Shown one piece after another: positions 2,955-48,211 of a stretch of 64,000 nt of DNA (within the stretch, counting starts at the first letter, position 1; each line of letters starts with the position of its first letter). The stretch spans positions 17,318,354-17,382,353 of the forward strand of contig CM020620.1 in assembly GCA_009829735.1 (NCBI GenBank), written 5' to 3'. The notes beneath the pieces were generated by a model. The model did not search any database, was not told the DNA's origin, and was given only the letters and a program-made list of their open reading frames with translations. A program made the position numbers and the translations under genes. This stretch comes from Pyropia yezoensis. Its lineage: Eukaryota > Rhodophyta > Bangiophyceae > Bangiales > Bangiaceae.

Positions 2955-2958
2955 TATT

Positions 2959-2976: not shown

Positions 2977-3166
2977 TGATTGGAGTGTTTGAGAAGAGAC
3001 ATTTGGGAGCAGCGGTTGGGTTGTTCCTGTTCTGTCTTTTTCTGTGGTTTGGGAATTATATGCACCCGTTTACGGGAATTCCATTCCTGGCTCTCTAACC
3101 CCTCTCTTGTGGTCTGGCGATCTTTGGACACGCAGGCAACTGGACTGTGGCTGTCAAGAGACCAAC

Positions 3167-9019: not shown

Positions 9020-9164
9020 GAAGAAGGGAACGGGTATATCAAGGAGAACACGCAATACAAGCATGGAACAATCAAGGAAAACAAGCACCCGCTCGTGCAA
9101 CCCTTCTCTCCGCCTCTTCCCTCCTCGCTTCTCCCAAGACCCTCACCCTCCTTGCCTCCAACTA

Positions 9165-10835
9165 CTACTCCCGGCGCGGACGCTGAGCCGCGGGAGTGTC
9201 CTCCAGCGCTGCCTCCGCGGCACGACGGGAACCGGAGGAAGACGGGATGACGTAGTGCGGTGGACGCGGTGCATCCCGGTATGACGCCATCGGAGTAGTA
9301 CCGGTAGTTGCCGGAGGCTCCCGCTCACCCAGATATGCCCGTCGGCGCCCCTGGAAGCCAGTGAAGGTTTCTGACCACTGCTGGGCCAAGCCATGCCGCG
9401 TCAAGGTCGCCAGAAGTTCGCCAACCACCGGGCTGTTCGACATCTGGCCGCTGTCCGCGCAGGCAAACACCCGGTCAACCACGTTGTTCAAGACGCTGGC
9501 ATAAGTACCCAGCACCAGGGAGGACCCAACGCCTTCAACCTGCACCGGAAGACGACCCAGCTGGTCTTCAATCATACCGACGTCGTACTGGTCGCATGTC
9601 GGACCACCCTGGATCAGGTACCAGTCAGGCACCCGGAAGCGGGTAAGGCGCAGAGTCGGCGCCGGAATCTCGAACCGCCCCGAGGATGACACCACCGGAC
9701 GGTCCACAACGGCCCCCGAAACCGGAGTACCCAACTCCAGCGGAGGCACAGCGCCGCCGGCGTTGGAAGAAGGCGTCGGAGGCGGAGCGGCTGGAGTGGT
9801 AGGCGACCGCACGGTCACCCCCATACTCGCCGCAGACAGGCGCGGTGCCGGAGGAGCTTGAAGTACCGGCACAGCCGGAACAGGGCGTGAACGCGCCGGC
9901 GACGGTTCAGGCGAGGCCACCGGGGCGACAGGTGCAATAGGAGGAAGCCGAGCCGCCGCAGACGCCTGATCGACCGCCGCGGCCCATCCCGACTCCTGCA
10001 CCGGCGGCCCAACTGGCAGAAGATCAAGGGCGGCCGGGGCAGGAAAGCTACCTAGCTGCGGCCACGCCGGAAGCGGCGTCGCCAGCTGCACCTTGGCCGG
10101 AAAAGACTGGTAGACCACCTGCACCCAACCGAAGCCATCCCGACGCGGGCGGTTCTGGTCGGCAATCGCGTTCAAGAAGTTCCGGTCATGCACCGGCACC
10201 AGACGCCGGAAGTCAATCATCGCCTGGAAGAGCCCCTTGTACTCTTCGTCCTGGCTGCACAGGAAGTCGACGGTCAACTTGTCGACAATCCAGACCATCA
10301 GGAGGTCAGGGAGAAACCAAAGCCGGTTGGACACCAAGACCTCGTGAAGCCAGTGGTTGGCCGCCAAGACTGTCATGTCGGACGTGTACATCATGTACGG
10401 GATCGAGTGGAAGAAGCCCTTGATCGACGCCTGAGTCAAGGCGTCCAAGAAGTACCAGGTGAAGGGGATGCTGGAAGGAGCAAACCCGACCGGGATCTCG
10501 ACTTCCTGCTGCTGCGGGATGACCTTGGGGTAGTACGCCGCCCGGTTAGCCTTATCCAGCTTCCAGAACTCCTGATGGTTGCAGCTCACGAGGAAGTCAC
10601 GCTGGCGGCCGCGTCGCTCGCCTTGCTCCCGTGCCGGTGACAACTTGGAGTACTTCCGGGTCAGGAAAGGCGGCTCCAGAGCGACCATGCGCGGACGGGG
10701 GTCGCAGTTCAGGCTCCCCGACCCCTTGAGCGCCTCGTCCCAGACCTTGAGCGCCCGGTGGACGTACCCCTCCTCCTCCGGCCACCGGAGAACGGACGCG
10801 GACACGCGACGCTCGGTCAAGGGTAGATCCAGCAC
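9165..10835 (-). CDS. A1 antisense ORF, distal part (aORF-C), unknown function
   Basis: A 556-codon frame on the strand opposite to pol, tail-to-tail with it (about 145 nt between stops). I do not recognise the product. It has a conserved N-terminal block (ALEPPFL...RDFLVSC...YYPKVIPQQQEVEIPVGF), a Trp/Leu/Met-rich probably helical block (WYFLDAL...), then PRRDGFGWVQVVYQSFPAKVQL, a Pro/Ala-rich linker, and a basic tail ending RPRRE. The first blocks align collinearly with the antisense ORF of family B. The A2 copy is nearly identical and equally open. The region could act as protein, as antisense RNA, or both. Confidence 0.7.
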   Translation of the reverse strand: MLDLPLTERRVSASVLRWPEEEGYVHRALKVWDEALKGSGSLNCDPRPRMVALEPPFLTRKYSKLSPAREQGERRGRQRDFLVSCNHQEFWKLDKANRAAYYPKVIPQQQEVEIPVGFAPSSIPFTWYFLDALTQASIKGFFHSIPYMMYTSDMTVLAANHWLHEVLVSNRLWFLPDLLMVWIVDKLTVDFLCSQDEEYKGLFQAMIDFRRLVPVHDRNFLNAIADQNRPRRDGFGWVQVVYQSFPAKVQLATPLPAWPQLGSFPAPAALDLLPVGPPVQESGWAAAVDQASAAARLPPIAPVAPVASPEPSPARSRPVPAVPVLQAPPAPRLSAASMGVTVRSPTTPAAPPPTPSSNAGGAVPPLELGTPVSGAVVDRPVVSSSGRFEIPAPTLRLTRFRVPDWYLIQGGPTCDQYDVGMIEDQLGRLPVQVEGVGSSLVLGTYASVLNNVVDRVFACADSGQMSNSPVVGELLATLTRHGLAQQWSETFTGFQGRRRAYLGEREPPATTGTTPMASYRDAPRPPHYVIPSSSGSRRAAEAALEDTPAAQRPRRE

Positions 10836-10868
10836 CAGCGCGAAGGGGAGATCCTCCAGACGAGCAAC

Positions 10869-11282
10869 TCAAGAGGAACCCGAGAAGCTCTGGGAGCGGT
10901 CTTGTGCCAGGCGCATCTGGTCCGCCGTGTGAAGACGAGCCTTATCCATCTCGGTCAGGACCCCGCGCTGGAGTTCCTTGCGCCAGAGGTCCAAGCAATC
11001 CTGCCGGCACAGGGCCGCGCCGGCGTTGCCGACCACCGTGGAGTAGCGCCGGCCCGCCAGAGTGTCCTGCCCAAGAAGCATCTCCGGGAGACCCACCGGG
11101 GGGGTCTCGACCGGGTGCATCACAGAAGCCGGGGGAACCCGATCCGTCCCCGCCGTGGCGACCGGCGCCGACATCGACACCCGAGGAACCGGAGGCAGGA
11201 GAGGGGCGCGACTACCCGAGTTCTCCTCCGCAACACTCGCCGCCGGAACCACGGGCCCAGCTTGGATCTCGGAACTGGACAT
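10869..11282 (-). CDS. A1 antisense ORF, proximal part (aORF-N), unknown function
   Basis: A frame of about 137 codons from the ATG at 11282 (MSSSEIQAGP...), placed directly before the 556-codon antisense frame, as in A2. The frame is open further back to the LTR edge, but this ATG is the first after the LTR. The product is Pro/Val-rich, then has a possibly helical stretch (LCRQDCLDLWRKELQRGVLTE) that loosely matches VWDRLREKYPRRVGF in the B antisense ORF. Both A copies share this two-frame layout, so it is the family's organisation. Function unknown. Confidence 0.55.
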   Translation of the reverse strand: MSSSEIQAGPVVPAASVAEENSGSRAPLLPPVPRVSMSAPVATAGTDRVPPASVMHPVETPPVGLPEMLLGQDTLAGRRYSTVVGNAGAALCRQDCLDLWRKELQRGVLTEMDKARLHTADQMRLAQDRSQSFSGSS

Positions 11283-11453
11283 GACGTCCAGACTCCGGGG
11301 GAACGAGAGGGCCAAGGTGAAGGAGAGAAGGGGGGCAGAGAACCGGAGCAGGTGATCGTGACCAGGGTGAAGACGCTCGACCTCGGCACCGGTGTGGACG
11401 TGCTCGAGGCTGTGCACGGTGGCACCTGGTTCGGCCCGAGGACGTGCCGGACT

Positions 11454-11463
11454 AGGGAGGGAG
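11454..11463 (+). other. A1 polypurine tract
   Basis: AGGGAGGGAG lies 3 nt before the 3' LTR, the usual position for the plus-strand primer. Confidence 0.7.
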
Positions 11464-11466
11464 CTA

Positions 11467-12037
11467 TGTAGCATCCCTGGCCCCGACTTGGCGCCGACCC
11501 GGGACTACAACCAGAGGGCACCAGGTGCCAGAACACGCCCGCCGTGTGGTGATGGTTGGCGGCCGTGGCCCGTGCCCGGCACTGGGATGCGGTGGATTAC
11601 GCTATCCACAAGTGAGAGAGGGATTTCTGATGGGTTTTTGCATACTGGTGGGGGACTTGATTTGAGAGAATTTGAGTGTGAGATTAGCGAGTGGGAATAG
11701 AATTAGTAGTGATAGTGGCCCCCGACCTGACGAGGTTAGACTCGGGTCGGGGCCACTCGGGGTTATGGGGGGGCTACCTGGCCAACGTGCCGAGGCTCCC
11801 CCAGATGCACGTTAAGAGGGACAGCGAGGCGCCCTTGGCCCGCGCCCTCAGGAAAAAGACAACTGCGCGTTTGCTTTCCTCTTCCCCGTGTGCACTACCG
11901 TGCGTATCTGTTTGCTCTGCGAGCAGGCACGTGGGGCAACAGGCATACCATTCTCGTAGTTCCCCTTTCTGTGTTACCTGTCCCTTTCCCCGGAGGGATA
12001 TTGACACGTGTCTGAGAGGATCGAGTTTTATACCACA
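11467..12037 (+). repeat. A1 3' LTR
   Basis: A 571-bp copy of the 5' LTR with about eight differences. Its outer edge, read on the minus strand, begins TGTGGTATAAAACTCG and points into the antisense ORFs. The AATGT duplication follows at 12038-12042. Confidence 0.97.
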
Positions 12038-19825: not shown

Positions 19826-19830
19826 CTAAT

Positions 19831-20300
19831 TGTGGCAAAAACCACATGCACACACGGCACCCAAGTTGGGGCGGTGTGCAAGGGCTGCCTCCCGTGTCGG
19901 GGGAACCGGAAGAAGTGCAAGTCGCACACACTCTGTCCCTGTTGTGGGGCAAGCCCCCCACGGACAAACAAGAGGATGGTGTGTGGTCCAACAGTTTCTT
20001 GGTCGGGACGGGGACGCAGGGCCAAGCCCCGCTGTCCCTCCCCTTATCCCCCCAGGGTCCACTCAGAATCTCGCCACTCAGAATCTCCCACCCCAGCACC
20101 TGCCCACCGGGCCACACGAAAATTCAAGACGATAAATGCAGAAAAACCCTCAAATCCAAGTTGGATTTACTACTAAGCTAACTATCCCAAACTTAGGGAA
20201 TATGGACCCTAATGCAGGGGGAGGAACGGATCAGGCTAGTGGCCTGCCGCCCCTTGCATGGCACGTGTTGCCCCCCTACCTGGGGGTCAATACTGCCACA
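19831..20300 (-). repeat. B1 3' LTR
   Basis: A 470-bp LTR matching 38395-38868, 47833-48198 and 56644-57113. It contains the palindrome AAATCCAA-g-TTGGATTT at 20152-20168 and a short direct repeat CACTCAGAATCTC. Confidence 0.95.
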
Positions 20301-20313
20301 CTCCCCTCTCCTC
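20301..20313 (-). other. B1 polypurine tract
   Basis: GAGGAGAGGGGAG on the minus strand directly abuts the 3' LTR. Confidence 0.8.
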
Positions 20314-20638
20314 AGTTCCGACCGACCCGGTCGGCCCTGTGAGGGGGTGCGTAAGCGCACGTCTGTGCGTTGGGGGCGCGACTTGCTGTCTCCCATCGAG
20401 TACGTAACGCGGATGTGGAGGCGGTCACGTTGACCGCCCCTTTCCTCAAGCTTGCCCACTCGGCAGCTTGCTCTCTTCAGTTCACACTTCACCATCACCA
20501 CCACCTCCCCTTCACCTTCCACTGGGCCGCCCCACGCTGGGGAGGCCACCCGTATACCCACGATCCGAGTCCCCCTCAACTCGAGGCGGGTCTCGTGCCG
20601 CGAGAGCCAGAGCGTCTCTCCCGAACTTGGGGAGAGCC

Positions 20639-20818
20639 ATGGCGACCCCGGGGGTGGAGACGGACTCCCTCGATGAACGTATTGAGGACACCTCCTACGG
20701 TGCAGCGCCCGCCGGGACTTCCGGCGGGGGCTCCGCGATCGCTCCGGGGGATGGGACTCCCGCGTCACCCGGCTTTGGGTTGACGGCGGGATCTCTCCCG
20801 GAGGCGGGCCTAGTTGTC
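20639..20818 (+). CDS. B1 antisense ORF, start portion
   Basis: First 60 codons of the B antisense ORF from the ATG at 20639 (MATPGVETDSLDERIEDTSY...), Gly/Ala/Pro-rich. The start matches B2 at 48536 and follows an imperfect hairpin (CTCTCCCGAA-c-TTGGGGAGAG). Element A2 is inserted directly after this piece; the rest lies at 30474-32237. Function unknown. Confidence 0.6.
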
Positions 20819-21389
20819 TGTGGTATATAACTCGATCCTCTCAGACACGTGTCTATATCCCTCGGGGGAAAGGGACTGGTAACATAGAAAGGGGAACTAC
20901 GAGAATGGTATGCCTGTTGCCTCACGTGCCTGCTCGCAGAGCAAACAGATACGCACGGTAGTGCACACGGGGAAGAGGAAAGCAAACGCGCAGTTGTCTT
21001 TTTCCTGAGGGCGCGGGCCAAGGGCGCCTCGCTGTCCCTCTTAACGTGCATCTGGGGGAGCCTCGGCACGTTGGCCAGGTAGCCCCCCCATAACCCCGAG
21101 TGGCCCCGACCCGAGTCTAACCTCGTCAGGTCGGGGGCCACTATCACTACTAATTCTATTCCCACTCACTAATCTCAAACTCAAATTCTCTCAAATCAAG
21201 TCCCTCACAAGTAAGCAAAAACCCATCAGAAATCCCTCTCTCACGTGTGGATAGCGTAGTCCACCGCATCCCAGTGCCGGGCACGGGCCACGGCCGCAAA
21301 CCATCACCACACGGCGGGCGTGTTCTGGCACCTGGTGCCCTCTGGTTGTAGTCCCGGGTCGGCGCCAAGTCGGGGCCAGGGATGCTACA
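20819..21389 (-). repeat. A2 3' LTR
   Basis: A 571-bp A-family LTR next to the antisense ORFs. Its outer edge on the plus strand reads TGTGGTATATAACTCG, a TATA-like sequence pointing toward 21574. Confidence 0.97.
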
Positions 21390-21392
21390 TAG

Positions 21393-21402
21393 CTCCCTCC
21401 CT
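21393..21402 (-). other. A2 polypurine tract
   Basis: AGGGAGGGAG on the minus strand, 3 nt from the 3' LTR, as in A1. Confidence 0.7.
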
Positions 21403-21573
21403 AGTCCGGCACGTCCTCGGGCCGAACCAGGTGCCACCGTGCACAGCCTCGAGCACGTCCACACCGGTGCCGAGGTCGAGCGTCTTCACCCTGGTCACGA
21501 TCACCTGCTCCGGTTCTCTGCCCCCCTTCTCTCCTTCACCTTGGCCCTCTCGTTCCCCCGGAGTCTGGACGTC

Positions 21574-21987
21574 ATGTCCAGTTCCGAGATCCAAGCTGGG
21601 CCCGTGGTTCCGGCGGCGAGTGTTGCGGAGGAGAACTCGGGTAGTCGCGCCCCTCTCCTGCCTCCGGTTCCTCGGGTGTCGATGTCGGCGCCGGTCGCCA
21701 CGGCGGGGACGGATCGGGTTCCCCCGGCTTCTGTGATGCACCCGGTCGAGACCCCCCCGGTGGGTCTCCCGGAGATGCTTCTTGGGCAGGACACTCTGGC
21801 GGGCCGGCGCTACTCCACGGTGGTCGGCAACGCCGGCGCGGCCCTGTGCCAGCAGGATTGCTTGGACCTCTGGCGCAAGGAACTCCAGCGCGGGGTCCTG
21901 ACCGAGATGGATAAGGCTCGTCTTCACACGGCGGACCAGATGCGCCTGGCACAAGACCGCTCCCAGAGCTTCTCGGGTTCCTCTTGA
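21574..21987 (+). CDS. A2 antisense ORF, proximal part (aORF-N)
   Basis: Counterpart of 10869-11282 in A1, nearly identical. The ATG at 21574 (MSSSEIQAGP...) lies about 185 nt inside the 3' LTR boundary; a longer frame reaches back to the LTR edge. Pro/Val-rich first half, then a stretch with LCQQDCLDLWRKELQ and ADQMRLAQDRSQSF. Any antisense transcript starting in or beyond the LTR would read this frame first. Function unknown. Confidence 0.55.
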   Translation: MSSSEIQAGPVVPAASVAEENSGSRAPLLPPVPRVSMSAPVATAGTDRVPPASVMHPVETPPVGLPEMLLGQDTLAGRRYSTVVGNAGAALCQQDCLDLWRKELQRGVLTEMDKARLHTADQMRLAQDRSQSFSGSS

Positions 21988-22020
21988 GTTGCTCGTCTGG
22001 AGGATCTCCCCTTCGCGCTG

Positions 22021-23691
22021 GTGCTGGATCTACCCTTGACCGAGCGTCGCGTGTCCGCGTCCGTTCTCCGGTGGCCGGAGGAGGAGGGGTACGTCCACCG
22101 GGCGCTCAAGGTCTGGGACGAGGCGCTCAAGGGGTCGGGGAGCCTGAACTGCGACCCCCGTCCGAGCATGGTCGCTCTGGAGCCGCCTTTCCTGACCCGG
22201 AAGTACTCCAAGTTGTCACCGGCACGGGAGCAAGGCGAGCGACGCGGCCGCCAGCGTGACTTCCTCGTGAGCTGCAACCATCAGGAGTTCTGGAAGCTGG
22301 ATAAGGCTAACCGGGCGGCGTACTACCCCAAGGTCATCCCGCAGCAGCAGGAAGTCGAGATCCCGGTCGGGTTTGCTCCTTCCAGCATCCCCTTCACCTG
22401 GTACTTCTTGGACGCCTTGACTCAGGCGTCGATCAAGGGCTTCTTCCACTCGATCCCGTACATGATGTACACGTCCGACATGACAGTCTTGGCGGCCAAC
22501 CACTGGCTTCACGAGGTCTTGGTGTCCAACCGGCTTTGGTTTCTCCCTGACCTCCTGATGGTCTGGATTGTCGACAAGTTGACCGTCGACTTCCTGTGCA
22601 GCCAGGACGAAGAGTACAAGGGGCTCTTCCAGGCGATGATTGACTTCCGGCGTCTGGTGCCGGTGCATGACCGGAACTTCTTGAACGCGATTGCCGACCA
22701 GAACCGCCCGCGTCGGGATGGCTTCGGTTGGGTGCAGGTGGTCTACCAGTCTTTTCCGGCCAAGGTGCAGCTGGCGACGCCGCTTCCGGCGTGGCCGCAG
22801 CTAGGTAGCTTTCCTGCCCCGGCCGCCCTTGATCTTCTGCCAGTTGGGCCGCCGGTGCAGGAGTCGGGATGGGCCGCGGCGGTCGGTCAGGCGTCTGCGG
22901 CGGCTCCGCTACCTCCTATTGCACCTGTCGCCCCGGTGGCCTCGCCTGAACCGTCGCCGGCGCGTTCACGCCCTGTTCCGGCTGTGCCGGTACTTCAAGC
23001 TCCTCCGGCACCGCGCCTGTCTGCGGCGAGTATGGGGGTGACCGTGCGGTCGCCTACCACTCCAGCCGCTCCGCCTCCGACGCCTTCTTCCAACGCCGGC
23101 GGCGCTGTGCCTCCGCTGGAGTTGGGTACTCCGGTTTCGGGGGCCGTTGTGGACCGTCCGGTGGTGTCATCCTCGGGGCGGTTCGAGATTCCGGCGCCGA
23201 CTCTGCGCCTTACCCGCTTCCGGGTGCCTGACTGGTACCTGATCCAGGGTGGTCCGACATGCGACCAGTACGACGTCGGTATGATTGAAGACCAGCTGGG
23301 TCGTCTTCCGGTGCAGGTTGAAGGCGTTGGGTCCTCCCTGGTGCTGGGTACTTATGCCAGCGTCTTGAACAACGTGGTTGACCGGGTGTTTGCCTGCGCG
23401 GACAGCGGCCAGATGTCGAACAGCCCGGTGGTTGGCGAACTTCTGGCGACCTTGACGCGGCATGGCTTGGCCCAGCAGTGGTCAGAAACCTTCACTGGCT
23501 TCCAGGGGCGCCGACGGGCATATCTGGGTGAGCGGGAGCCTCCGGCAACTACCGGTACTACTCCGATGGCGTCATACCGGGATGCACCGCGTCCACCGCA
23601 CTACGTCATCCCGTCTTCCTCCGGTTCCCGTCGTGCCGCGGAGGCAGCGCTGGAGGACACTCCCGCGGCTCAGCGTCCGCGCCGGGAGTAG
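22021..23691 (+). CDS. A2 antisense ORF, distal part (aORF-C), unknown function
   Basis: 556 codons, ending about 145 nt from the pol stop on the other strand. Visible parts: LEPPFLTRKYSKL and RDFLVSCNHQEF (residues about 50-90), YYPKVIPQQQEVEIPVGF (about 100), a hydrophobic probably helical region with MTVLAANHWLHEVLVSNRL (about 120-190), PRRDGFGWVQVVYQSFPAKVQL (about 230-250), a Pro/Ala linker (about 270-390), a second conserved-looking region (LRLTRFRVPDWYLIQGG on) and a basic end. No known domain recognised. It is unlike gag, pol or env, though a helical core preceded by flexible sequence would not exclude a distant gag-like origin. Confidence 0.72.
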   Translation: MLDLPLTERRVSASVLRWPEEEGYVHRALKVWDEALKGSGSLNCDPRPSMVALEPPFLTRKYSKLSPAREQGERRGRQRDFLVSCNHQEFWKLDKANRAAYYPKVIPQQQEVEIPVGFAPSSIPFTWYFLDALTQASIKGFFHSIPYMMYTSDMTVLAANHWLHEVLVSNRLWFLPDLLMVWIVDKLTVDFLCSQDEEYKGLFQAMIDFRRLVPVHDRNFLNAIADQNRPRRDGFGWVQVVYQSFPAKVQLATPLPAWPQLGSFPAPAALDLLPVGPPVQESGWAAAVGQASAAAPLPPIAPVAPVASPEPSPARSRPVPAVPVLQAPPAPRLSAASMGVTVRSPTTPAAPPPTPSSNAGGAVPPLELGTPVSGAVVDRPVVSSSGRFEIPAPTLRLTRFRVPDWYLIQGGPTCDQYDVGMIEDQLGRLPVQVEGVGSSLVLGTYASVLNNVVDRVFACADSGQMSNSPVVGELLATLTRHGLAQQWSETFTGFQGRRRAYLGEREPPATTGTTPMASYRDAPRPPHYVIPSSSGSRRAAEAALEDTPAAQRPRRE

Positions 23692-23836
23692 TAGTTGGAG
23701 GCAAGGAGGGTGAGGGTCTTGGGAGAAGCGAGGAGGGAAGAGGCGGAGAGAAGGGTTGCACGAGCGGGTGCTTGTTTTCCTTGATTGTTCCATGCTTGTA
23801 TTGCGTGTTCTCCTTGATATACCCGTTCCCTTCTTC

Positions 23837-26800
23837 TCAATCCTCTTGTTCCGCATCCGTTGCGGATGAACTCGGCTCGTCCCGAGGGTCTTGGTTGGCC
23901 CCATCCTCTTGGTCCTCCTGCGAGTCCGACTCCAGAATCTTGCCGGCTCTGGCCACTGGAGTGCCCTCTATCCCGTTCCGTCGCGTGTAGGCACAGACAT
24001 CCGCGATGGGTAGCCGGTTTGAGGGTTCCCAGGTATCATCTGCCGGGTTAAAACCGAACCAGCGTACTCGCAGGTACAGGCGTCCGTCTCTCCAGGCATG
24101 GTCCACAAACTTGACGTAGACATATTCCCGACCTTCTTCTTGGGATAGCCAGGGTACTGCGGCCCGCTTGCGCCGGGTCAAGTCCCGTTGGCTTGGCGGT
24201 GGAGCTCGGGTGACATGGTCGCTGCTCACGCGGTACGGGGAGCCATCCACGTCTAGAAGAAAGGTCCAACCGTCCGTATTCAGGATCTCATAAGGTTTAT
24301 CCGTCTTCGAGTCCAGCTTCCCCCGGGTCTTGCTATGGTTGTCCACAAAAACCCAGTCGCCACCACCCAGTTCCTTGTTCTTTTCCCGAACGCCCTTGTT
24401 ATAGCCCCGCTTGTATCGCTCCTGGGTCTTCGAGATTGACTCCTTGACTCTTGGGAGCAGGAGCTTCAGTTGTTCCAGGAACTCATCCTTTGCCTTGGGA
24501 CCTGACTTCAGTGCAGGCTGGAGACCGTCTGGTATTCTTTCCAGGGAGAAGTTGGTCAGCCGCCTTGGGGTGACAAAGTCGAGTGGAGCGACCCCCGTTG
24601 TCCGGTGAACTCGGGAGTTGTAGGCTAGAGTGAGGACAGCCAGGAGCTCGTCCCAGTCTTCTTGGTGCTCCTCCACGTAGTGCCGTAGCATGTCTACTGG
24701 GGTCCGGTTGAATCGTTCCACCTGGCCGTTCGTTTGAGGGTGGTACGTCGTAGTGTATAAGTTCTTGATGCCCATCAGGTCACAGACTCCTTGGAAGAAC
24801 AGGGATGCAAACTGAGGACCGTTGTCGGTTAAGACGGAGTCTGGAGGGCCGTAGGCAGCTATCCAGTACTCGCAAAAGGCTGACGTGACATCCAGAGCCG
24901 TGATGGTCCTCAGCGGGATTGCTCGAGTGAACTTGGAGAACCGGTCACATATGATGAGCAGGTATATGTTGCCACTGGATGTTTCAGGTAGGGGCCCCAG
25001 GATGTCCATGCTTAAGCTTGCAAAGGGCTCTGCCGCCGGGAATAGGCGTAGCTTAGAAGTTTTCTTCCTCTGGGACAACCGGTTCCTTGCACACGAAACA
25101 CAAGCCTCCAGGTACTTATGGACGTCACTGGCCATGGTTTCCCAGTAATAGTGTCGTCTCATGGAAGCATACATCCGATTGATACCAGGATGTCCGGCCT
25201 GGGGAGACGAGTGCTCCAGGCGTAGGATGTCAGCTCGTAGGCCCCGGGGTACGTAGACTTGAGTGGCCCCATCGAAGGGTGACACCCGTACTAGGAGTCC
25301 GTCCGTAGACTCGGAGAAACGACTGTTCCGGTTCAGGTCCATTTGATGGCGAAGCTCCAAGCATTGAGGGTTCGTCAGTTGTGCCTCCAGCATCCGGTGA
25401 ATGGTCACCGGTTGATGAGCTTCAGGTGTCTCATACAGGGGAGCGTGCCAGCCACGTCCGACATTCGGGAGGATGAAGCACGGTATTTCCTCCGGGATAG
25501 GACCGGTATCGGCTGCAGGAGTCTCCAGCCGGGACATGGTGTCGGCGCAGTGGTGCTCCCTCCCTGCTCTGGTGCACACCTTGTACTTGAACTCCGAAAG
25601 GCGTAGGCGCCACCGGGCTACCCTTCCTTGACTGCTGTCCATACATAGCAGCCACCTTAGGCTGGCGTGGTCCGTCCGGATGAGGAACTCTTGTCCTTCA
25701 AGATATGGCCGTAAGAGGAAGCAAGCCCAGACGACTGCCAAGCACTCGCGCTCGGTCGTGGAATAGTTCTTCTCAGCTGGAGTCAAGACGCGACTGTAGT
25801 AGCCTATCGGGAGAAAGTGCCCATCAGGTTGCTGCTGGAGTAGTGAGCACCCCACCTGGACGCCACAGGCATCAGTCTCCAGATCAAACTGGCCCTCCCG
25901 CTTGGGTAACGCCAGTACTGGAGTGGTGGTCAGGCGCTTCTTGAGCTCTTCGAAGGCCGCGGTCTGCTTCTCGTCGAACACCGGGAGTTGTGCGGGAAGC
26001 TTCTTGCTGGTCAGCTTGGTCAGTGGCCGGGCAATCAGAGCATAGTCCCGTACGAACCGGCGATAGACGTTGCACATACCCAGGAAGCTCTTGAGTTCCG
26101 TCTGGGTTTTGGGTTGCCGTGCATGCCGGAGGGCCTTCATGTTCTTCTCATTGACTCGGAGCTCCCCCGGACTCAGCACATGCCCCAGATACTGCACCTC
26201 AGTCTCAAACAGGTGGCACTTCTCGGCCTTGAGGGTAACTCCAGCCTTGGACAGGAGGGCCAGGACCTCCCGAAGGTGCTCCAGGTGTTCCGCTGGGGTC
26301 TGGGAGAAAACGATAATGTCGTCCAGGTAGACCAAACATGTTCTCCACCTTAGCCCGGACAGGATGATGTCGATGGCTCTTTGGAAGGTTGCCGGAGCAT
26401 TGGTGAGACCAAAAGGAAGACGCTTGCACCGGAATAGTCCCAGGTGGCACGTGAAGGTGGTCTTGTCCTTGTCCTCGTCAGCCAGAGGGATCTGCCAGTA
26501 ACCGGCATTACAATCCAGCGTCGAGAAGAGGGTGGCATCACCAAGGAAGTCGAGGCAATCATCCATCCGGGGTATCGGGTATACGTCCTTGACTGTCATC
26601 TCGTTCAGGCGCCGGTAGTCAACGCAGAAACGGAAGTGACCGCCGGTTTTCGGGACGACTACCACTGGGAAAGCCCACTCGCCATCAGACGGCTCGATAA
26701 CATCCATCTTGAGCATCTTGTTAACCTGCTTCTCAATCTCATCCCGGCGATGAGGTCCGGCCCGATATGGTTGCATGTGCACTGGCTTAGCTTCCGGCTT

Positions 26801-27952
26801 GAGTTGAATCTGGTGTAGAGTGGCGTCCATCTTGCCCAGCTCTCCCGACCACAGGTGCCGATATTCCTGGAGAAGCTTCTCCAGTGCCTCCTTCAAGTCG
26901 GGAGGGACATTTTCTTGCTTGACCTTCGGCATCCCGGGTGGTGCTTGTTCGGGTTTCGGAGTAGCGCTGCCAGCCTGCTCTTGTTTCGGAGGTACGTCTA
27001 AGGCCGTCAAGTTGGATGCCAGTTCTTGTTGCAGGTTCAGGAGGTCTTCCTTGCTCATAGCACGGGCGGATCCCCGGTAAGGCTCTGCTGTACCAACTCG
27101 GGTGCCCTTGGCGAGGGTTATTGGCTTCCGGCTCACGTTGACGATTAGCACCGAGAACGGGGTGTGCCTTTCTACCTTCTTGTGATGTCCGTGGGCCAAG
27201 TATAGCCGGTGTTTCGCCAGGAATTCCTTACGTCCGTAGATCAGGCATTGACCTGCAATCCGGGTCGTTTCTTGAACCTTGGTCTCCGAGCGAGGAGGTA
27301 GGAGCACCGGTTTGAAGAGAGTCAAGGTAGAGGGTGGGATGCGTTCCCTCTTGCTCTTGGCTACACGAACCTTGGCGTCCACATGCTCCAATACCGGTGA
27401 CACAAACCCATGGTTGAACTGGACCTTCCCTTCTCCGGGTAGGATGCTCTTGACATGCTGCTTCTGGAAGTCCCAGCCTAGGATGAGGGGGACTGATAGG
27501 GTCTTGACTACTAGAAAGGGAAAAAGCATTGGTTCATTGTTGACATAGATGGCGACAGGAAGACGGCCAAGCGGTCGTAGGGTTTGACCCGAAGCGTCGA
27601 CGATATGGGTCCGGGTAGGCGCTCTCCAGGCATGTCGACGCCAGCCCGGAGGTAACAGGTTCTCAGTGATGACGCTTGGTCCGGCTCCCGTGTCAACCAC
27701 CGGCGTAACTGCTTGGGGGAGACTATCCCCCACACGCATACGAGCATTAATCTTGAGGTTTTCTTTACGCAGGACGAGCAATGTCCCCTTGAACAAACAG
27801 GGTGTCCAGGCGGCTACCGGTTGAGCGGGTAACTGCCGTCCTTTCTCCCGGCACGCAAGGGGAGAACAGGTAGAAGTACCCTGCCGTCGGAGATTCGGGA
27901 AGACACTTGGGGAGAGCGCCTGCCCTACTCGTTTCCCGGGTCCGAGGAGTCC
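23837..27952 (-). CDS. pol: A2 pol polyprotein (protease-RT-RNase H-integrase-chromodomain)
   Basis: One open frame of about 1,320 codons from the first internal start-like codon, open further back into gag to about 27952, which suits -1 frameshifting from gag. Approximate positions in the 1,319-residue part: protease DTG at 35, RT YLDD at 490, RNase H ETDACG at 639, integrase HHCC at 860-900, DDE residues at about 930, 990 and 1,030, chromodomain at 1,225-1,275 (FVDHAW...LRVRWFGF...TWEP). The domain order and chromodomain place it among chromoviruses of Ty3/gypsy. Usual length for the family. Confidence 0.96.
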   Translation of the reverse strand, partial: GLLGPGKRVGQALSPSVFPNLRRQGTSTCSPLACREKGRQLPAQPVAAWTPCLFKGTLLVLRKENLKINARMRVGDSLPQAVTPVVDTGAGPSVITENLLPPGWRRHAWRAPTRTHIVDASGQTLRPLGRLPVAIYVNNEPMLFPFLVVKTLSVPLILGWDFQKQHVKSILPGEGKVQFNHGFVSPVLEHVDAKVRVAKSKRERIPPSTLTLFKPVLLPPRSETKVQETTRIAGQCLIYGRKEFLAKHRLYLAHGHHKKVERHTPFSVLIVNVSRKPITLAKGTRVGTAEPYRGSARAMSKEDLLNLQQELASNLTALDVPPKQEQAGSATPKPEQAPPGMPKVKQENVPPDLKEALEKLLQEYRHLWSGELGKMDATLHQIQLKPEAKPVHMQPYRAGPHRRDEIEKQVNKMLKMDVIEPSDGEWAFPVVVVPKTGGHFRFCVDYRRLNEMTVKDVYPIPRMDDCLDFLGDATLFSTLDCNAGYWQIPLADEDKDKTTFTCHLGLFRCKRLPFGLTNAPATFQRAIDIILSGLRWRTCLVYLDDIIVFSQTPAEHLEHLREVLALLSKAGVTLKAEKCHLFETEVQYLGHVLSPGELRVNEKNMKALRHARQPKTQTELKSFLGMCNVYRRFVRDYALIARPLTKLTSKKLPAQLPVFDEKQTAAFEELKKRLTTTPVLALPKREGQFDLETDACGVQVGCSLLQQQPDGHFLPIGYYSRVLTPAEKNYSTTERECLAVVWACFLLRPYLEGQEFLIRTDHASLRWLLCMDSSQGRVARWRLRLSEFKYKVCTRAGREHHCADTMSRLETPAADTGPIPEEIPCFILPNVGRGWHAPLYETPEAHQPVTIHRMLEAQLTNPQCLELRHQMDLNRNSRFSESTDGLLVRVSPFDGATQVYVPRGLRADILRLEHSSPQAGHPGINRMYASMRRHYYWETMASDVHKYLEACVSCARNRLSQRKKTSKLRLFPAAEPFASLSMDILGPLPETSSGNIYLLIICDRFSKFTRAIPLRTITALDVTSAFCEYWIAAYGPPDSVLTDNGPQFASLFFQGVCDLMGIKNLYTTTYHPQTNGQVERFNRTPVDMLRHYVEEHQEDWDELLAVLTLAYNSRVHRTTGVAPLDFVTPRRLTNFSLERIPDGLQPALKSGPKAKDEFLEQLKLLLPRVKESISKTQERYKRGYNKGVREKNKELGGGDWVFVDNHSKTRGKLDSKTDKPYEILNTDGWTFLLDVDGSPYRVSSDHVTRAPPPSQRDLTRRKRAAVPWLSQEEGREYVYVKFVDHAWRDGRLYLRVRWFGFNPADDTWEPSNRLPIADVCAYTRRNGIEGTPVARAGKILESDSQEDQEDGANQDPRDEPSSSATDAEQED

Positions 27953-29685
27953 TTAGAGGTTTCGGTCTCCAGGTCGAAGTCCGTAGGAGCTTCCCTTGCC
28001 AGAGCCTCCGTGATGCTCTGTAAGGTTGCCACTCGGATTGCATGTACCTGTGCCTTGTCCATCTTGGAGGGTGCCCGCCGGTCAGCCCAGTTGACCGCCT
28101 TTGCAAACACCAGTCCTTGACGCTTGAGTTTCTCCTGGAGGTCCTTGGGAATGGTCGGGCACTGGTAGGACATGTGATCCTCCTTCTGGCACAGCCAACA
28201 AGACCGGAACCGCTGGTTCTTGACTTGCTTGGGGGCGACCAGGGATGGTTGCTCCTTAGAAACGAAGCCGCCCCACTTGTCCCCTGACCCCATGGGTGAG
28301 GCCTCGCCAACTGCGAGTACTGGTACAGTGCTATCACCTCCCTTATACTTGTCGGGTCCGGGTCGAACTCGCGACAACGGCTTGGGAGTTGATACCATGG
28401 GAGCTTGGAGGGCCCTGGCTTGCCGGTACTTGCCCTGGGTGTAGGCCAACAACTGCTGGAAGGTATGTTCTTGATGTTCCTGGTTGTAGTTCTCCGCATC
28501 CACTTGGAGATATTCAGGAAGCCCTTCCGAGAAGATCATCTTGAGCCTGTCCTCAGGGTAAACGTTGCCACAAGCATCGCTCATCTCCCGGACACGACGG
28601 GCGAACGCCTCTGGAGTCTCTTGTCTTTCCATGGTTGCCCGGTTCAGCCTGCCGACTGCTTTACGCAGAGAGTCCGCGTCAGCGTAGTTGGACAGGAGCC
28701 AGTTGACCGCCTCCGGATAACTCGCGACGGTACGTCCGACAATGTGTCCGGCAGAGTCTGGTAGAACCTGTGCAAACCGCTGTTCCGCTTCTCCGGTCAT
28801 GAAGTTAACCAGGAGGTAGAGAGCCTTGCCCTCGGGCACATCTTTGTCATTGCATGCCTTGACAAACCGGCGCAGGAAGGCAAAGATAAGCGCCGGTCTC
28901 TTCCCGGAAAACTTAGGATGTCCCCCGAAGCTCGGCTGCATTCGCCGGTTCAGGGACGTTATCTTCTTGGCCATCTTCCGGGTGTAACCTTGGTCTTGGT
29001 TCTCCAGCCGGTAGTTACCCCAATACGTGACCTTGTTCAGGGTGGCATCTCCCACTTGATGGGCAGGGAAGTCAAACTCGACTAGCCTGCGCCGGGTGGG
29101 ACCGGGAGATGCATCCCAATCATATCCCTCCTCAGAGCTGGAGGAACTGGTCTCGCTGGTGCTAGAGCGACGGCGATGACGCCGACGCCTTCGGCTGCTC
29201 CGGTTACCGGTCTTGGAGCTCCCCGCCCCATAGGATGCAAGGGGAGGAAAAGCTTGGCCGGTCCCAGGAGTCGAGGTCTCAGGGAGACCCGTAGAACCAG
29301 TCACAACGGTGCCTCTGGCATCGCTAGTGCCCACAGGAAGAGGTGTATACACCCAGCTGCCATGTGTGGGTCCAGGAGTAAACACACCAGGGGCTATCCC
29401 TGGAGGTTGAGGAGTAGAACCGACAGGAGGGAGACGTCTGCTGCGAGCGGACTCAAACGCCGTTGACCCCGGGGTAGCTCCCACAGGAGGAACAGCCGGA
29501 GGAACGGGAGCAGGTGGTGCTTGGCCGCCTGTGGACTCCAGTCCGCTACCGGATGTCACGCGCAGGTCTGCTTCACCCGTAGGGAGAACGCCGGGTTGGG
29601 CACCGTCCCCCGCGGTGACCAGGGATGCGTCAAGGGACGCGGGGTCTACCCCTTCGGGCACCGTCGTGCCAGGGAGGGTAGCCAT
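27925..29685 (-). CDS. gag: A2 gag
   Basis: About 586 codons from the ATG at 29685 (CCAACATGG). Pro/Gly/Thr-rich N-terminus, basic RRRRRHRRRSS stretch near residue 185, Ser/Glu run, capsid-like core with FAFLRRFVKACNDKDVPEGK near residue 270, and a zinc knuckle CWLCQKEDHMSYQC near residue 500. It ends GNE-stop, with the frameshift heptamer covering the last codons. A1 gag is its close relative. Confidence 0.95.
   Translation of the reverse strand: MATLPGTTVPEGVDPASLDASLVTAGDGAQPGVLPTGEADLRVTSGSGLESTGGQAPPAPVPPAVPPVGATPGSTAFESARSRRLPPVGSTPQPPGIAPGVFTPGPTHGSWVYTPLPVGTSDARGTVVTGSTGLPETSTPGTGQAFPPLASYGAGSSKTGNRSSRRRRRHRRRSSTSETSSSSSEEGYDWDASPGPTRRRLVEFDFPAHQVGDATLNKVTYWGNYRLENQDQGYTRKMAKKITSLNRRMQPSFGGHPKFSGKRPALIFAFLRRFVKACNDKDVPEGKALYLLVNFMTGEAEQRFAQVLPDSAGHIVGRTVASYPEAVNWLLSNYADADSLRKAVGRLNRATMERQETPEAFARRVREMSDACGNVYPEDRLKMIFSEGLPEYLQVDAENYNQEHQEHTFQQLLAYTQGKYRQARALQAPMVSTPKPLSRVRPGPDKYKGGDSTVPVLAVGEASPMGSGDKWGGFVSKEQPSLVAPKQVKNQRFRSCWLCQKEDHMSYQCPTIPKDLQEKLKRQGLVFAKAVNWADRRAPSKMDKAQVHAIRVATLQSITEALAREAPTDFDLETETSKDSSDPGNE
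27931..27937 (-). promoter_or_regulatory. -1 ribosomal frameshift heptamer GGGAAAC (A2)
   Basis: Same position and phase as in A1: G GGA AAC GAG stop. The pol frame is open across it. Confidence 0.75.
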
Positions 29686-29875
29686 GTTGGTCTCTTGACA
29701 GCCACAGTCCAGTTGCCTGCGTGTCCAAAGATCGCCAGACCACAAGAGAGGGGTTAGAGAGCCAGGAATGGAATTCCCGTAAACGGGTGCATATAATTCC
29801 CAAACCACAGAAAAAGACAGAACAGGAACAACCCAACCGCTGCTCCCAAATGTCTCTTCTCAAACACTCCAATCA

Positions 29876-29893
29876 TCCCCTGCTGCTCCACCA
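29876..29893 (-). other. A2 primer-binding site
   Basis: TGGTGGAGCAGCAGGGGA on the minus strand, 4 nt from the 5' LTR, as in A1. Confidence 0.8.
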
Positions 29894-29897
29894 AATA

Positions 29898-30468
29898 TGT
29901 GGTATAAAACTCGATCCTCTCAGACACGTGTCAATATCCCCCGGGGGAAAGGGACAGGTAACACAGAAAGTGGAACTACGAGAATGGTATGCCTGTTGCC
30001 TCACGTGCCTGCTCGCAGAGCAAACAGATACGCACGGTAGTGCACACGGGGAGGAGGAAAGCAAACGCGCAGTTGTCTTTTTCCTGAGGGCGCGGGCCAA
30101 GGGCGCCTCGCTGTACCTCTTAACGTGCATCTGGGGGAGCCTCGGCACGTTGGCCAGGTAGCCCCCCCATAACCCCGAGTGGCCCCGACCCGAGTCTAAC
30201 CTCGTCAGGTCGGGGGCCACTATCACTACTAATTCTATTCCCACTCGCTAGTCTCACACTCAAATTCTCTCAAATCAAGTCCCCCACAAGTATGCAAAAA
30301 CCCATCAGAAATCCCTCTCTCACGTGTGGATAGCGTAGTCCACCGCATCCCAGTGCCGGGCACGGGCCACGGCCGCAAACCATCACCACACGGCGGGCGT
30401 GTTCTGGCACCTGGTGCCCTCTGGTTGTAGTCCCGGGTCGGCGCCAAGTCGGGGCCAGGGATGCTACA
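29898..30468 (-). repeat. A2 5' LTR
   Basis: A 571-bp LTR, same termini as A1. The B1 target copy TTGCC follows at 30469-30473. Confidence 0.97.
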
Positions 30469-30473
30469 TTGCC

Positions 30474-32237
30474 CCGCGTGAGGCCTTGGGGCGGTGGTTT
30501 TACCCCGCTTGGCCTCTCTATGAAGAGGGGTTGACTGTTCTTCGCTGTGGCCGACTTGGCACAGCGATGGGTCGGGTGTGGGACCGCCTACGGGAGAAGT
30601 ATCCCCGTAGGGTCGGGTTCCTGGCCCGCTTCAGGACGGACCAGTTTGCCTTCCTGGACGATGAGGGGGTTGAGGACGTTCAGCGTGCCAAGGCCATGGT
30701 GGACCGCGGGGGAACTATCCCGGGTCCCGGCGACTTGCCGACCTTTACTTGGGACGCGGTGGTAACTCGCCCCCCGTACCTCCACGAGGCCGATCCGCAC
30801 ACTCATCACTTTGATGTGCGGATGGAGAAGGACTTTCGGCGAGGTCCCTACTTGGTGACCTCGGCTCAACTTGAGCTTCCTCAACAGTCTGCTGCCAGCA
30901 AGGAGCAGTACTATCCGAAGAAGCCCGAGTGGTGGCCTCAAGTTGAGGTCCCGTACGGTTTCCCAGCGTTGCTACCACGGTTGCTTGACCACTTCGGCTC
31001 CGTCATGTTGACGGCTGGCCCTGATCACCTGGTGTGGGCCATGTTGGCCACCCAGTGGCTCCTCGAGGTCATGTCGACCTGGGTGTCCTGTGTCCAGCGA
31101 CGGGGGATGCTCTGGCATCTCCCCGTCCGGCTCATCCAAGGTTTGGAACAGCTCACCCCTCAGCTAGTCGCTGAGGGGTGCTCATCAGGACAACTCACTC
31201 TACTTGAGGAGATGCTCCGGCTCCATAAGGTCATCGAGTGGGAAAGCATTGAGCACAAGTTGCGGCGCCCCACTCGTGGGCCCAAGGACGATGGCGCACT
31301 TCGCCAGTTCGTGTGGGTCGCTCGTGAACTTCACGACGGCCGTGTGGTCCTACGAAAGGGGATGGGCATCGGGGACTACCCGTATGCCTCGGGGGTGGAT
31401 CGCCACACTGCGCCACCCCCGGACAAGCCCATAGTTATGGCCGTGCCCTCATATGATGACCATATGACTCAACCTACTGCGGGGGCCCCAAGTCGGGGTC
31501 GCAGTTATACCCGGGTAACGCCACCTCGGCGTGCCCGTCCGCTTCCTCCTGTTCCTTTCCAGCCTCACAGGAACATCCCGATCAGCGTGGCCGTGGAGTC
31601 ATCCACCCCGGTGTCCCCCAACTTGGGGTCCATTCTCCTGACGGTATACCCCAAGCTGGTGTTACCGCCCACGCCTCTAACCTCAGAGATGATGATCACC
31701 ACGTTGGTGCGCACCATTTCCTGGTTGGCCGCGTCAACCGCAACCCCCCAAAGTTCCGAGACTCCTCAACTTGAGGAGCGCGTTCGTACTGCAGTGGCGA
31801 CCGCGAGTTCCGAGTCGGTGGCGGAGTTTATGACAGCCGAGTTGGCTCGCATTGGGGCTATTATGCCCCAGCCAGCCCCACCTGGGCGTGGCAAACGTCG
31901 CGCGAGCCGGGCATACTCGCCTCCTCGCCGTCGTCGCCGGCGCACCCGGCGCTCTCCCTCCGTGTCGGAAGACGAGTTGTCTTACTCCGTCTCGGAGTCC
32001 TCTACCCCGTCGGAGTCGGAGTCTGTCCGGCGTCTGCGTCGCCAACGTGCGCGCAAGGCTAAACAGAAGGGCAGCCGCAGTCGTCGCCACTTGCGCGACC
32101 GTGAGGGGCGCGGCGGTTCCGACTTGGAGCCGCCGGCCCCGCCGACTGGTGGGGAGCGTTATCGCCGTGGGTCTCGCCGCTCGCCTCCACGTGAAGGCGA
32201 GGGCCGTGGAGTGGGAGAGTCTAGCATGCGTGCCTAG
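30474..32237 (+). CDS. B1 antisense ORF, main portion
   Basis: About 588 codons continuing the B antisense ORF after the A2 insertion. Parts in order: GRWFYPAWPLYEEGLTVLRC; VWDRLREKYPRRVGF; PPYLHEADPHTHHFDVRM; FRRGPYLVTSAQLELPQQ; YYPKKPEWWPQVEVPYGF; a helical region with WAMLATQWLLEVMSTWV; RPTRGPKDDGALRQFVWV; a Pro-rich middle; SEMMITTLVRTISWLAAST; and an Arg/Ser-rich tail resembling an RS domain. The YYPK...PYGF and downstream blocks match the A antisense ORF in the same order. It ends 34 nt from the B1 pol stop. Function unknown; the basic RS-like tail hints at nuclear or RNA-related activity. Confidence 0.72.
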   Translation, partial: PREALGRWFYPAWPLYEEGLTVLRCGRLGTAMGRVWDRLREKYPRRVGFLARFRTDQFAFLDDEGVEDVQRAKAMVDRGGTIPGPGDLPTFTWDAVVTRPPYLHEADPHTHHFDVRMEKDFRRGPYLVTSAQLELPQQSAASKEQYYPKKPEWWPQVEVPYGFPALLPRLLDHFGSVMLTAGPDHLVWAMLATQWLLEVMSTWVSCVQRRGMLWHLPVRLIQGLEQLTPQLVAEGCSSGQLTLLEEMLRLHKVIEWESIEHKLRRPTRGPKDDGALRQFVWVARELHDGRVVLRKGMGIGDYPYASGVDRHTAPPPDKPIVMAVPSYDDHMTQPTAGAPSRGRSYTRVTPPRRARPLPPVPFQPHRNIPISVAVESSTPVSPNLGSILLTVYPKLVLPPTPLTSEMMITTLVRTISWLAASTATPQSSETPQLEERVRTAVATASSESVAEFMTAELARIGAIMPQPAPPGRGKRRASRAYSPPRRRRRRTRRSPSVSEDELSYSVSESSTPSESESVRRLRRQRARKAKQKGSRSRRHLRDREGRGGSDLEPPAPPTGGERYRRGSRRSPPREGEGRGVGESSMRA

Positions 32238-32270
32238 TTGGCAGCTGCCTTTGTTGTGAGAGTGTGAGGG

Positions 32271-35200
32271 TTAGGGCTGTAGGTAAAAGCCACTCTGCGT
32301 ACCACTTCGACTTGAAGCACTCTCTTGGCACTGTTGCTCGGCCTTCCTGCACGTTGAGGGAGGGCTGTTAGGGTCTATCTCATTCCGGGCACAGTACGCC
32401 CGGACCTTCTCAGCGGGAAGGTCCTCCACATACTCCCACGTATCGTCCTTGGCTTTGTAGCCAAACCAACGCACCCTCAACATGAGGCGGTCAGTGTCTT
32501 CATCCCATCCGTGGTCGATGAACTTATCGAACACGTACTCCTGCGGGCCCTGTTTGGCCGCAGGCAGTGAGGGGAGGCGCCACGCTTCCAAAGCACGCGC
32601 CCAAGCTGGGTCGTCTGCAGGCGGTGGTGCAATTTTGACCACGTCCTGTCCGTTCACTGTGCGGACCCCATCGTCACATTCGATGGTGAAGCGCCGCCCA
32701 TCAGTACGAAGGACCTGGTACGGCCCCTTCGTCTGGAATACCAACTTACCCCCAGTTGGGGTGTGCGAGTGTACCAGCACCCAGTCACCCTGCTCGGGGA
32801 CGTGCTTAGCATTGCGCACCTTTTTGTCAAAGGTACGCTCGTAGCGCTTTTGTGCTTTGTCCATCTCAGCCCTGACTTTAGGGATGAGGTTTTCAAGCCT
32901 AGCAGCGAGCTCCGCCTTACTCTCAGTAGGAGTAGGCGTACTGCCACCATCCTCCCTAGTTCGGAGCGACCGCCGCACGGCAATAGACCGCACACGACGG
33001 GGGGTCACAAAAGCGAGGGGTACTTCCCCGGTAGATGAGTGAACCTGCGAATTGTAGGCGGTAGTAAGAATAGAAATGTATTGGTCCCACGTCTTCACGT
33101 GCTCACTCACATAGTGGCGCTGCTGCCTAACAATAGTTTTGTTGAAGCGCTCCATCTGCCCATTAGTTTGTGGGTGGTAGGGGGTGGCATAGTGTGCCTT
33201 AACCCCCAATATATCCAGCACTCCCTGAAACAGTACAGACGCAAATTGCGGTCCATTGTCCGATAGTGTACTATCCGGGATGCCATACGCGGCAACCCAG
33301 TGATCTAGGAAGGCTGACACGACCGACATGGCCGTGATCTCTGCCAGTGGGATCGCTCGCGTAAGTTTCGTGAAGCGGTCACAGATGACCAGGAGGTACT
33401 GGTTGCCCCCCTCGGTCACTGGCAGTGGCCCAAGGATGTCCATTTCCAACGCGGCGAACGGCTCCTTGGCCGGGAACAATAGCATAGCCGTACTAGGCCG
33501 CCGTTCCATCAGACGGTTCTGTGCACAACTTGTGCAGGCAGCCACCCAACTGTAGATGTCGACCACCATGGACGGCCAGTAGTACCTGGTCCTCAGGGTC
33601 TGGTACAGTTTACTAGACCCCAGGTGTCCACCCATGGGAGCGTTGTGCTCCCTCTCAAGGATACTGTCCTTGAGGGATGCGGGGACGACAAGTTGTTCAG
33701 CCCCTTGGAATACCTCCCTCCTCATGAGGAGGCCATCGTCCCCCAGAAAGAACCGCATCTCCGCCACTGTATCCAGTGTATCCCTCTGCGACTTGCAGAA
33801 GGGATCCTCGGCCTGGGCCTTCACCACCTCGTCCAGGGACAGGGGCAAGTACTTCTTGTTCCCTGGCGCCTCGGGGTTCAACGCCTGACCCGAGCGCGTG
33901 ACTACCCTCACGATAGGGATGTCCTCATCGACTGGGTTAGTGTCCAGCCCCTCGGTAGGTACCCGAGAGAGGCCGTCGGCAAGGGCATGTTGCCTGCCAG
34001 GTCGGTACTCAATGTCAAAGTTGAAGGGTGCCAGTCGCACCCTCCACCGATTGAGACGAGTGTTCGTACAGTCCGTCTTAAAGATGAACTGCAACGCGCG
34101 GTGGTCACAGCGGATGAGGAACTTCTCACCCTCGAGGTAGTGACGAAGTGACGTCACCGCCCACACCACTGCGAATCCTTCCAACTCGGTGACTCCGTAG
34201 TTCTTCTCGGCCGAGTTCAGCCCCTTACTGAAGTATCCCACCGGCAAGTACTCCTTTGCCGGCTGCTGTTGAAGCAACATACAACCAAGTTGGTTGTAGC
34301 TAGCGTCCACATCCAGGATTTAGTGGCCTCCCAACCTGGGAAAAGCCAGGATAGGGGGCTTCAGCAGAAGGTCCCGAAGAGTCTCAAAGGATTCCTGCTC
34401 CACCCGAGTTGGGGGAGGCAGGTTCTTCGGTACCGTTGAGCTAACTAGCTCATTCAATGGCTTCGCCACCTTGGCGAAGCCCTTGGTGAAACGTCGGTAC
34501 ACGTTACACATCCCGAGGAAGCTCCTCATCTGTGATTGGGTCTGGGGGTACTGAGCCTTACGAATGGCCCTCAAGTTCTTCTCGTTAACACTGAGACGCC
34601 CCGGACGGACAACATGTCCCAAGTACTCCACCTCTTGAGTGAAGAGGTGGCACTTACTCGCCTTCAGTGACACACCGGCGTCAGCAAGTAGCTTGAACAC
34701 CTGGCCAAGATGGCCAATGTGTTCCTCCGGACTTCGGGAGAACACAATGATATCGTCTAGGTACACAAGACAGATCTGCCACCGTACTCCGGCCAGAGTC
34801 ATGTCCATAGCGCGCTGGAAAGTTGCCGGCGCGTTACACAGTCCAAACGGTAGGCGCTTGCACTGGTAGGTACCACAGTGACAGGTAAAGGTAGTTTTAT
34901 GCCTGTCCTCCGGGGCAATGGGAATTTGCCAGTACCCCGCGTTACAGTCCAGGGTAGAGAACACGTTTGCCTCCCCCAGAGAGTCCAGACAGTCGTCCAT
35001 CGTAGGTAGGGGATAACTGTCCTTTACCGTGCTCTCGTTGAGCTTACGGTAGTCGATACAAAACCGGGGGGTCCCATCAACTTTGGGGACGATAACCACC
35101 GGACTCGCCCACTCGGCGTTGCTGGCCTCGATCACATCGAGGGCCTCCATGCGAGCGACTTGCTCCTTAACGAGGGCCCTTGAACGAGGTCCTCCCCTAT

Positions 35201-38275: not shown

Positions 38276-38374
38276 GTTGGCTGACGATCCGTATGACACG
38301 GTCCAAGTCCACCGCTCCTCTGAGACAGAGGGCCCCCTACACCCGGGTGCACCTGGAGGTAAAGTTTACCTCTG

Positions 38375-38392
38375 TCCCCTGCTGCTCCACCA
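38375..38392 (-). other. B1 primer-binding site
   Basis: TGGTGGAGCAGCAGGGGA on the minus strand, 2 nt from the 5' LTR; identical to family A. Confidence 0.8.
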
Positions 38393-38394
38393 AA

Positions 38395-38868: not shown

Positions 38869-38873
38869 CTAGT

Positions 38874-48198: not shown

Positions 48199-48211
48199 CT
48201 CCCCTCTCCTC
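48199..48211 (-). other. B2 polypurine tract
   Basis: GAGGAGAGGGGAG on the minus strand abuts the 3' LTR, identical to B1. Confidence 0.8.

Follow-up and report, generated by a model that had tools for sequence, protein, structure and literature searches.

We identified a gene on the strand opposite to pol in two families of Ty3/gypsy retrotransposons. In one of them, family B, the antisense frame codes for a protein and is under constraint equal to that on pol. Judged by sequence similarity to the antisense protein of the second family (A), the gene probably dates back to the common ancestor of the two families. We consider it very likely that the frame represents a genuine coding accessory gene of one chromodomain Ty3/gypsy lineage.

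Self-comparison and Pfam searches of the window (the whole 64-kb stretch of DNA analysed) revealed two Ty3/gypsy families, A (A1 and A2) and B (B1, B2 and B3). The elements, their coding regions as identified in a Pfam domain scan of A2 and B1, and the antisense genes are located as follows:

2384..12037, plus strand: element A1, 99.46% identical to A2
20819..30468, minus strand: element A2, a chromodomain Ty3/gypsy element nested in B1
20819..21396 and about 29892..30468, minus strand: 3' LTR and 5' LTR of A2, respectively
23837..27952, minus strand: A2 pol with protease, RT, RNase H, integrase and chromodomain (protease and chromodomain with Pfam scores below the curated cut-off)
27925..29859, minus strand: A2 gag ORF, in which a CCHC zinc knuckle scores weakly in Pfam
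about 19828..38870, minus strand: element B1, interrupted by A2
about 19828..20302 and about 38392..38870: LTRs of B1
32271..35750, minus strand: B1 pol in two ORFs, one with RT and one with RNase H, integrase and chromodomain
47833..57115 (ends approximate), minus strand: element B2
57114..64000 (start approximate), plus strand: element B3, running past the window edge
9165..11282, minus strand: A1 antisense gene, layout as in A2
21574..23691, plus strand: A2 antisense gene, whose putative initiator Met lies at 21574
20639..20818, plus strand: 5' part of the B1 antisense gene (its first 180 bases), severed by the A2 insertion
30469..32237, plus strand: remainder of the B1 antisense gene, ending 33 bases from the end of the pol ORF
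48536..50478, plus strand: B2 antisense gene, reading frame interrupted at about 48.85 kb
61936..63647, minus strand: B3 antisense gene, decayed by stops and an internal deletion

The order of pol domains in A2 and B1 (RT, RNase H, integrase, chromodomain) is that of Ty3/gypsy chromoviruses. This assignment is by domain order; the Chromo domain (PF00385) at the C terminus of pol was found with E-values of 7.9e-4 (A2) and 4.9e-4 (B1), both scoring below the Pfam curated cut-off. Families A and B are 46-48% identical in pol and 28% identical in Gag over 259 amino acids, and the primer-binding sequence following the 5' LTR is the same in both. Where the two can be aligned (5.9 kb), B3 shows about 80% identity to B1 and to B2. 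Between A1 and A2, divergence amounts to 1.6-2.5% in the LTRs and to only 0.17-0.6% in the internal pieces compared (indel columns counted). The LTR differences are mostly private to one LTR and include many transversions; the excess could be due to gene conversion, to faster mutation of LTRs or to less thorough polishing of the LTRs in the assembly. Between the retrotransposons, a 441-codon ORF (13783-15108) matches Plant_tran (PF04827, E 3e-49) and DDE_Tnp_4, and we take it by its domains to be a PIF/Harbinger-like transposase. One of the ten flanking ORFs scanned, a transposase, gave a Pfam match at E ≤ 0.01. No tRNA was found. GC-rich direct repeats, 65-85% alike, are located at 15714-16762 and 18921-19760. 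Pfam gave no hit for either of the two ORFs scanned in this area (15706-16767 and 17634-18959).

In all five copies in the window, the antisense gene occupies the interval from pol to the 3' LTR and meets pol tail-to-tail, and in each of them it is damaged, leaving none fully intact. The sequence-only reading had placed the A2 frame correctly: it occupies 21574-23691 on the plus strand and, since the pol ORF on the opposite strand ends at 23837, the two genes are arranged tail-to-tail without overlap. In A2 a stop codon at 21985-21987, which that reading did not mention, interrupts the frame, after which 567 codons are open (21988-23691); A1 carries the same stop and likewise 567 open codons. 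The nested insertion that splits the B1 gene had also gone unmentioned, and the break in the B2 frame is a further correction. A2 is inserted within the B1 antisense gene (junctions at 20818 and 30469), so that the frame open from 30339 begins in the A2 LTR and is partly A2 sequence, the true 5' part of the gene lying at 20639-20818. B3, a third and decayed B copy, had not been used at all.

The predicted antisense protein has an N-terminal region that is conserved, hydrophobic and Trp-bearing. A linker rich in Pro, another conserved stretch and a basic tail follow; in the B protein this tail is Arg/Ser-rich and contains KRRASRAYSPPRRRRRR. Selection on the frame was determined by comparison of B1 and B3 over 462 codons (B3 positions 61860-63290, to which the B3 gene contributes 61936-63285 and not its upstream part). 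This comparison yielded a dN of 0.183, a dS of 0.765 and a dN/dS of 0.24 (95% bootstrap interval 0.18-0.31), and pol of the same two copies, used as a control, also gave 0.24. The antisense dN/dS was 0.24 for B2 versus B3 and 0.30 for B1 versus B2. Differences between B1 and B3 were distributed over codon positions 1, 2 and 3 as 91:70:179. When the same substitutions were scattered neutrally in 2000 trials, dN/dS ranged from 0.59 to 1.39 and never reached 0.24, and third-position changes numbered at most 140, compared to the 179 observed. A position bias driven by CpG was rejected, as dN/dS was 0.225 when codons in CpG context were omitted. The constraint between B1 and B3 is strongest in the region shared with family A (dN/dS 0.136 and 0.204) and in the second conserved stretch (0.162). 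The basic tail (0.32) and the Pro-rich linker (0.36) are less constrained. The antisense frame contains one to three stops, including the one at its end, and the other five frames of the region contain 10 to 24. For B3 the three stops compare to a mean of 9.2 and a minimum of one in the neutral scatters, a difference that is not decisive alone. In family A, the antisense ORFs of A1 and A2 differ at four of 1704 bases, three of these changes being protein-changing, and because of this small number dN/dS is not measurable and constraint is not seen in this family. A dN/dS well below 1 for the antisense frame, proposed beforehand as support, was obtained in family B, and the central claim of the sequence-only reading, a coding antisense family common to two divergent Ty3/gypsy families, is supported.

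The antisense proteins of families A and B from the window are 22% identical over 166 amino acids in a BLASTP alignment (E 2e-6), and the A protein is about 23% identical over 166 amino acids to P0008, a longer B homologue (E 4e-8). When each of the six frames of the A region was paired with each of the six of the B region (36 pairings), antisense against antisense was the sole match (E 2.7e-6; the next lowest E-value is 0.29). The Smith-Waterman score of A against B is 100, compared to a maximum of 68 in 2000 shuffles, so the sharing of sequence blocks exceeds chance, as had been argued from the letters only. Profile comparison with hhalign also aligned A to B above background (P 5.8e-5 and 9.4e-5), with probabilities of only 66% and 59% from shallow alignments. 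Of the ordered blocks that had been listed, PPFL/PPYL, DFLVS/YLVTS and YYPK...VEIPVGF/VEVPYGF occur in order within a single BLASTP alignment. The last one (PRRDGFGWVQ.. / ..KDDGALRQFV) is considered weak because it lies outside the BLASTP and hhalign matches and lines up only in MAFFT. TBLASTN searches of the window (E ≤ 1e-3) with P0006, an A homologue, detected only the antisense genes of A1 and A2 and those of B1 and B2 (5e-5 and 7e-4 for the B genes), and with P0008 only the B genes and the antisense genes of A1 and A2 (9e-7 for A). Counting against this, the A2 protein alone, searched against 5.8 billion proteins, did not retrieve B proteins at E ≤ 1e-3 among the matches listed. Since both families carry the antisense protein, the gene probably predates their split.

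Intact or longer relatives of the antisense protein exist outside the window. P0006 (583 amino acids) is 97% identical to the A protein and P0008 (576 amino acids) is 91% identical to the B protein, and the A-like proteins P0012, P0023 and P0024 from EukProt are open across the position of the stop in A. The search of 5.8 billion proteins with the A2 protein listed at least two homologues and a further search at least one. A profile search based on conserved segments of both proteins, in which 8000 candidates were scored, found at least 18 proteins at E ≤ 0.1. The 18 listed include P0006 and P0008, which were already known, and originate from EukProt (5), 'ena' (1) and 'lgn' (12); 16 of them are 238 amino acids or shorter. 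P0007 is a relative absent from this listing, and alignment A5 leaves out P0022, which loses the frame after its first part, and P0005. The proteins found in the database searches look like members of the same family as the antisense protein. In viral contigs of IMG/VR, 134 and 31 pattern matches were obtained and no relative was confirmed among them.

Pfam searches, run on four window proteins and on 14 A-like and 8 B-like members, gave no significant match for the antisense protein. The best E-value, 0.031 to Acetyltransf_6, was obtained for one of the eight B-like members (0.14-0.36 for the others) and is taken as chance. The antisense proteins have no significant match among PDB sequences, the best one (E 0.034, a Rieske subunit) extending over the Pro-rich part and likewise being taken as chance. 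A clear transmembrane segment was not found, the highest hydropathy over 19 residues being 1.54 (A) and 1.23 (B). The threshold usually applied for a transmembrane segment is 1.6. An Env-like ORF was rejected based on the antisense orientation and on hydropathy values below this threshold.

The explanation we favour as a whole, and which we hold to be rather probable, is that of an ancestral coding accessory gene which is kept by purifying selection and whose product is a nuclear helper or regulator. Under this explanation, the gene would be kept by purifying selection during transposition. Its convergent placement beside the 3' LTR points to an antisense promoter in or close to that LTR; such a promoter of its own would drive the gene, and the transcript would end convergently with that of gag-pol. 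The product is predicted to be a soluble protein. It would most likely enter the nucleus, act on RNA or cDNA of the element or on Gag, and thereby regulate or help transposition, in a way comparable to the product of gene23 of the maize element Grande. Considering the features of the protein, its placement and the analogy to gene23, we lean towards an accessory protein that is nuclear or particle-associated and has element nucleic acid or Gag as its target, and a nuclear role in nucleic acid binding specifically is put forward tentatively. A point against this explanation is the in-frame stop shared by the recent copies A1 and A2, which indicates that in this subfamily the full-length protein is dispensable in cis, is provided in trans or is disappearing. 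The stop suggests that the full-length protein can be absent in cis, and we hypothesize that it works in trans or that its N-terminal part is dispensable.

Instead of a nuclear regulator, the gene might encode a second structural or Gag-interacting particle protein, such as a capsid- or nucleocapsid-like helper. The hydrophobic domain, the Pro-rich linker and the basic RS-like tail would fit such a protein, and a similar Arg/Ser-rich stretch is present in the Gag ORF of family A. No homology of the antisense protein to the Gag and Pol proteins of its own element was found, however, and BLASTP gave no match to A or B Gag at E ≤ 0.01 (best E 10); we regard this alternative as unlikely. Equally improbable is an accessory of host origin, for instance an enzyme or a transcription factor, acquired by capture from the genome of a host or a virus and with relatives that are no longer visible. 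The orphan nature of the sequence agrees with capture, and PMC6317226 assumes several sources for the extra ORFs in plant retrotransposons. Any capture must, however, predate the split of A and B, and no non-element homologue is found among the matches listed in searches of Pfam, PDB and 5.8 billion proteins.

It is very unlikely that the antisense transcript is what matters, acting through double-stranded RNA or small RNAs in control of copy number, and that the open frame is incidental. The convergent arrangement with pol would suit this explanation, and PMC7264820 considers a role of this kind for antisense ORFs of plants, but an RNA function leaves the pol-level constraint on codons unexplained. 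The RNA could have a role in addition to the protein. Chance open frames with look-alike low-complexity blocks are hardly credible: long open frames arise easily at the GC content of 55-68% (measured in 2-kb steps), the window containing 106 stop-to-stop ORFs of at least 150 amino acids, but the single match among 36 frame pairs and the failure of shuffles and neutral scatter to attain the observed score and dN/dS refute chance for family B, and for family A the case rests on similarity to B and on homologues elsewhere.

The sequence-only reading was right in noting that plant retroelements with antisense genes had been described before, which lowers the novelty of the arrangement. The layout between pol and the 3' LTR is known in plants as 'aORF-3R', as described in PMC7264820 and PMC6317226. 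The present genes share with this class an antisense frame in this position that reaches the 250 codons set as threshold in PMC6317226, with 567 open codons in A1 and A2 and 576 amino acids in the B homologue P0008. They also share its presence across copies (all five in the window, damaged) and its conservation, family B having the same dN/dS in the antisense frame as in pol. The known systems, including Grande gene23 and Boty in Botrytis, have the same place and the same antisense orientation, and their proteins, like the present ones, are conserved as other element proteins are (PMC7264820 and PMC6317226). PMC6317226 distinguishes 314 groups among the proteins from extra ORFs of Ty3/gypsy elements, describes the extra ORFs of plant retrotransposons as highly heterogeneous and questions whether they have any function. 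For Grande gene23, PMC7264820 reports a promoter of its own and a nuclear product.

The Retand protein TRP28 is likewise antisense and located between pol and the 3' LTR; it is a proposed nucleic-acid-binding regulator and is reported from flowering plants only (PMC11963269). The same source places Grande and Retand in the non-chromovirus lineage, whereas the present elements carry a chromodomain. Membership of the Retand lineage was rejected on the pol of A2 and B1, which carries that domain (sub-cut-off). RIRE2 also figures in the placement of Grande and Retand. Identity to TRP28 was rejected as well, as PF04195 was not detected at E ≤ 1 in 22 family members and the four window proteins. The earlier doubt about membership of known families was thus justified, with neither Transposase_28 (TRP28) nor any other Pfam domain matching significantly. 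REM1 of Chlamydomonas is, like the present elements, a Ty3/gypsy chromovirus with a reverse-frame ORF, but this ORF contains a GPY/F module and a chromodomain (PMC2774666), whereas here the chromodomain is located in the sense pol. A REM1-type reverse ORF was rejected, as no chromodomain or PHD match was found in the antisense proteins by Pfam at E ≤ 1. The reverse ORF of REM1 also carries a PHD finger. HBZ of HTLV-1 and ASP of HIV-1 are antisense accessory genes of LTR elements whose likeness to the present gene is in layout only. The antisense promoter of HTLV lies in the 3' LTR according to PMC7264820.

No description of this antisense protein family was found in literature titles and abstract openings, a collection in which subscription papers are sparsely covered. 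The layout is known; what looks new, as far as these searches extend, is the protein family and the fact that two chromodomain families both conserve it. A protein conserved across families with pol proteins that are about 47% identical, together with selection of pol strength in family B, makes this a good case for studying the function of antisense accessory genes. That the gene is shared and selected suggests that the protein helps or controls movement of the element. It is conceivable, though we would not count on it, that this new accessory family defines a whole chromodomain Ty3/gypsy lineage in a non-flowering eukaryote and represents a second independent origin of the arrangement seen for HBZ and gene23, with a protein that acts in trans such that elements without a full-length copy still move. 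Antisense accessory genes are now approachable in a lineage to which Retand TRP28 does not apply, and the recent A copies with their interrupted frame make trans-complementation directly testable.
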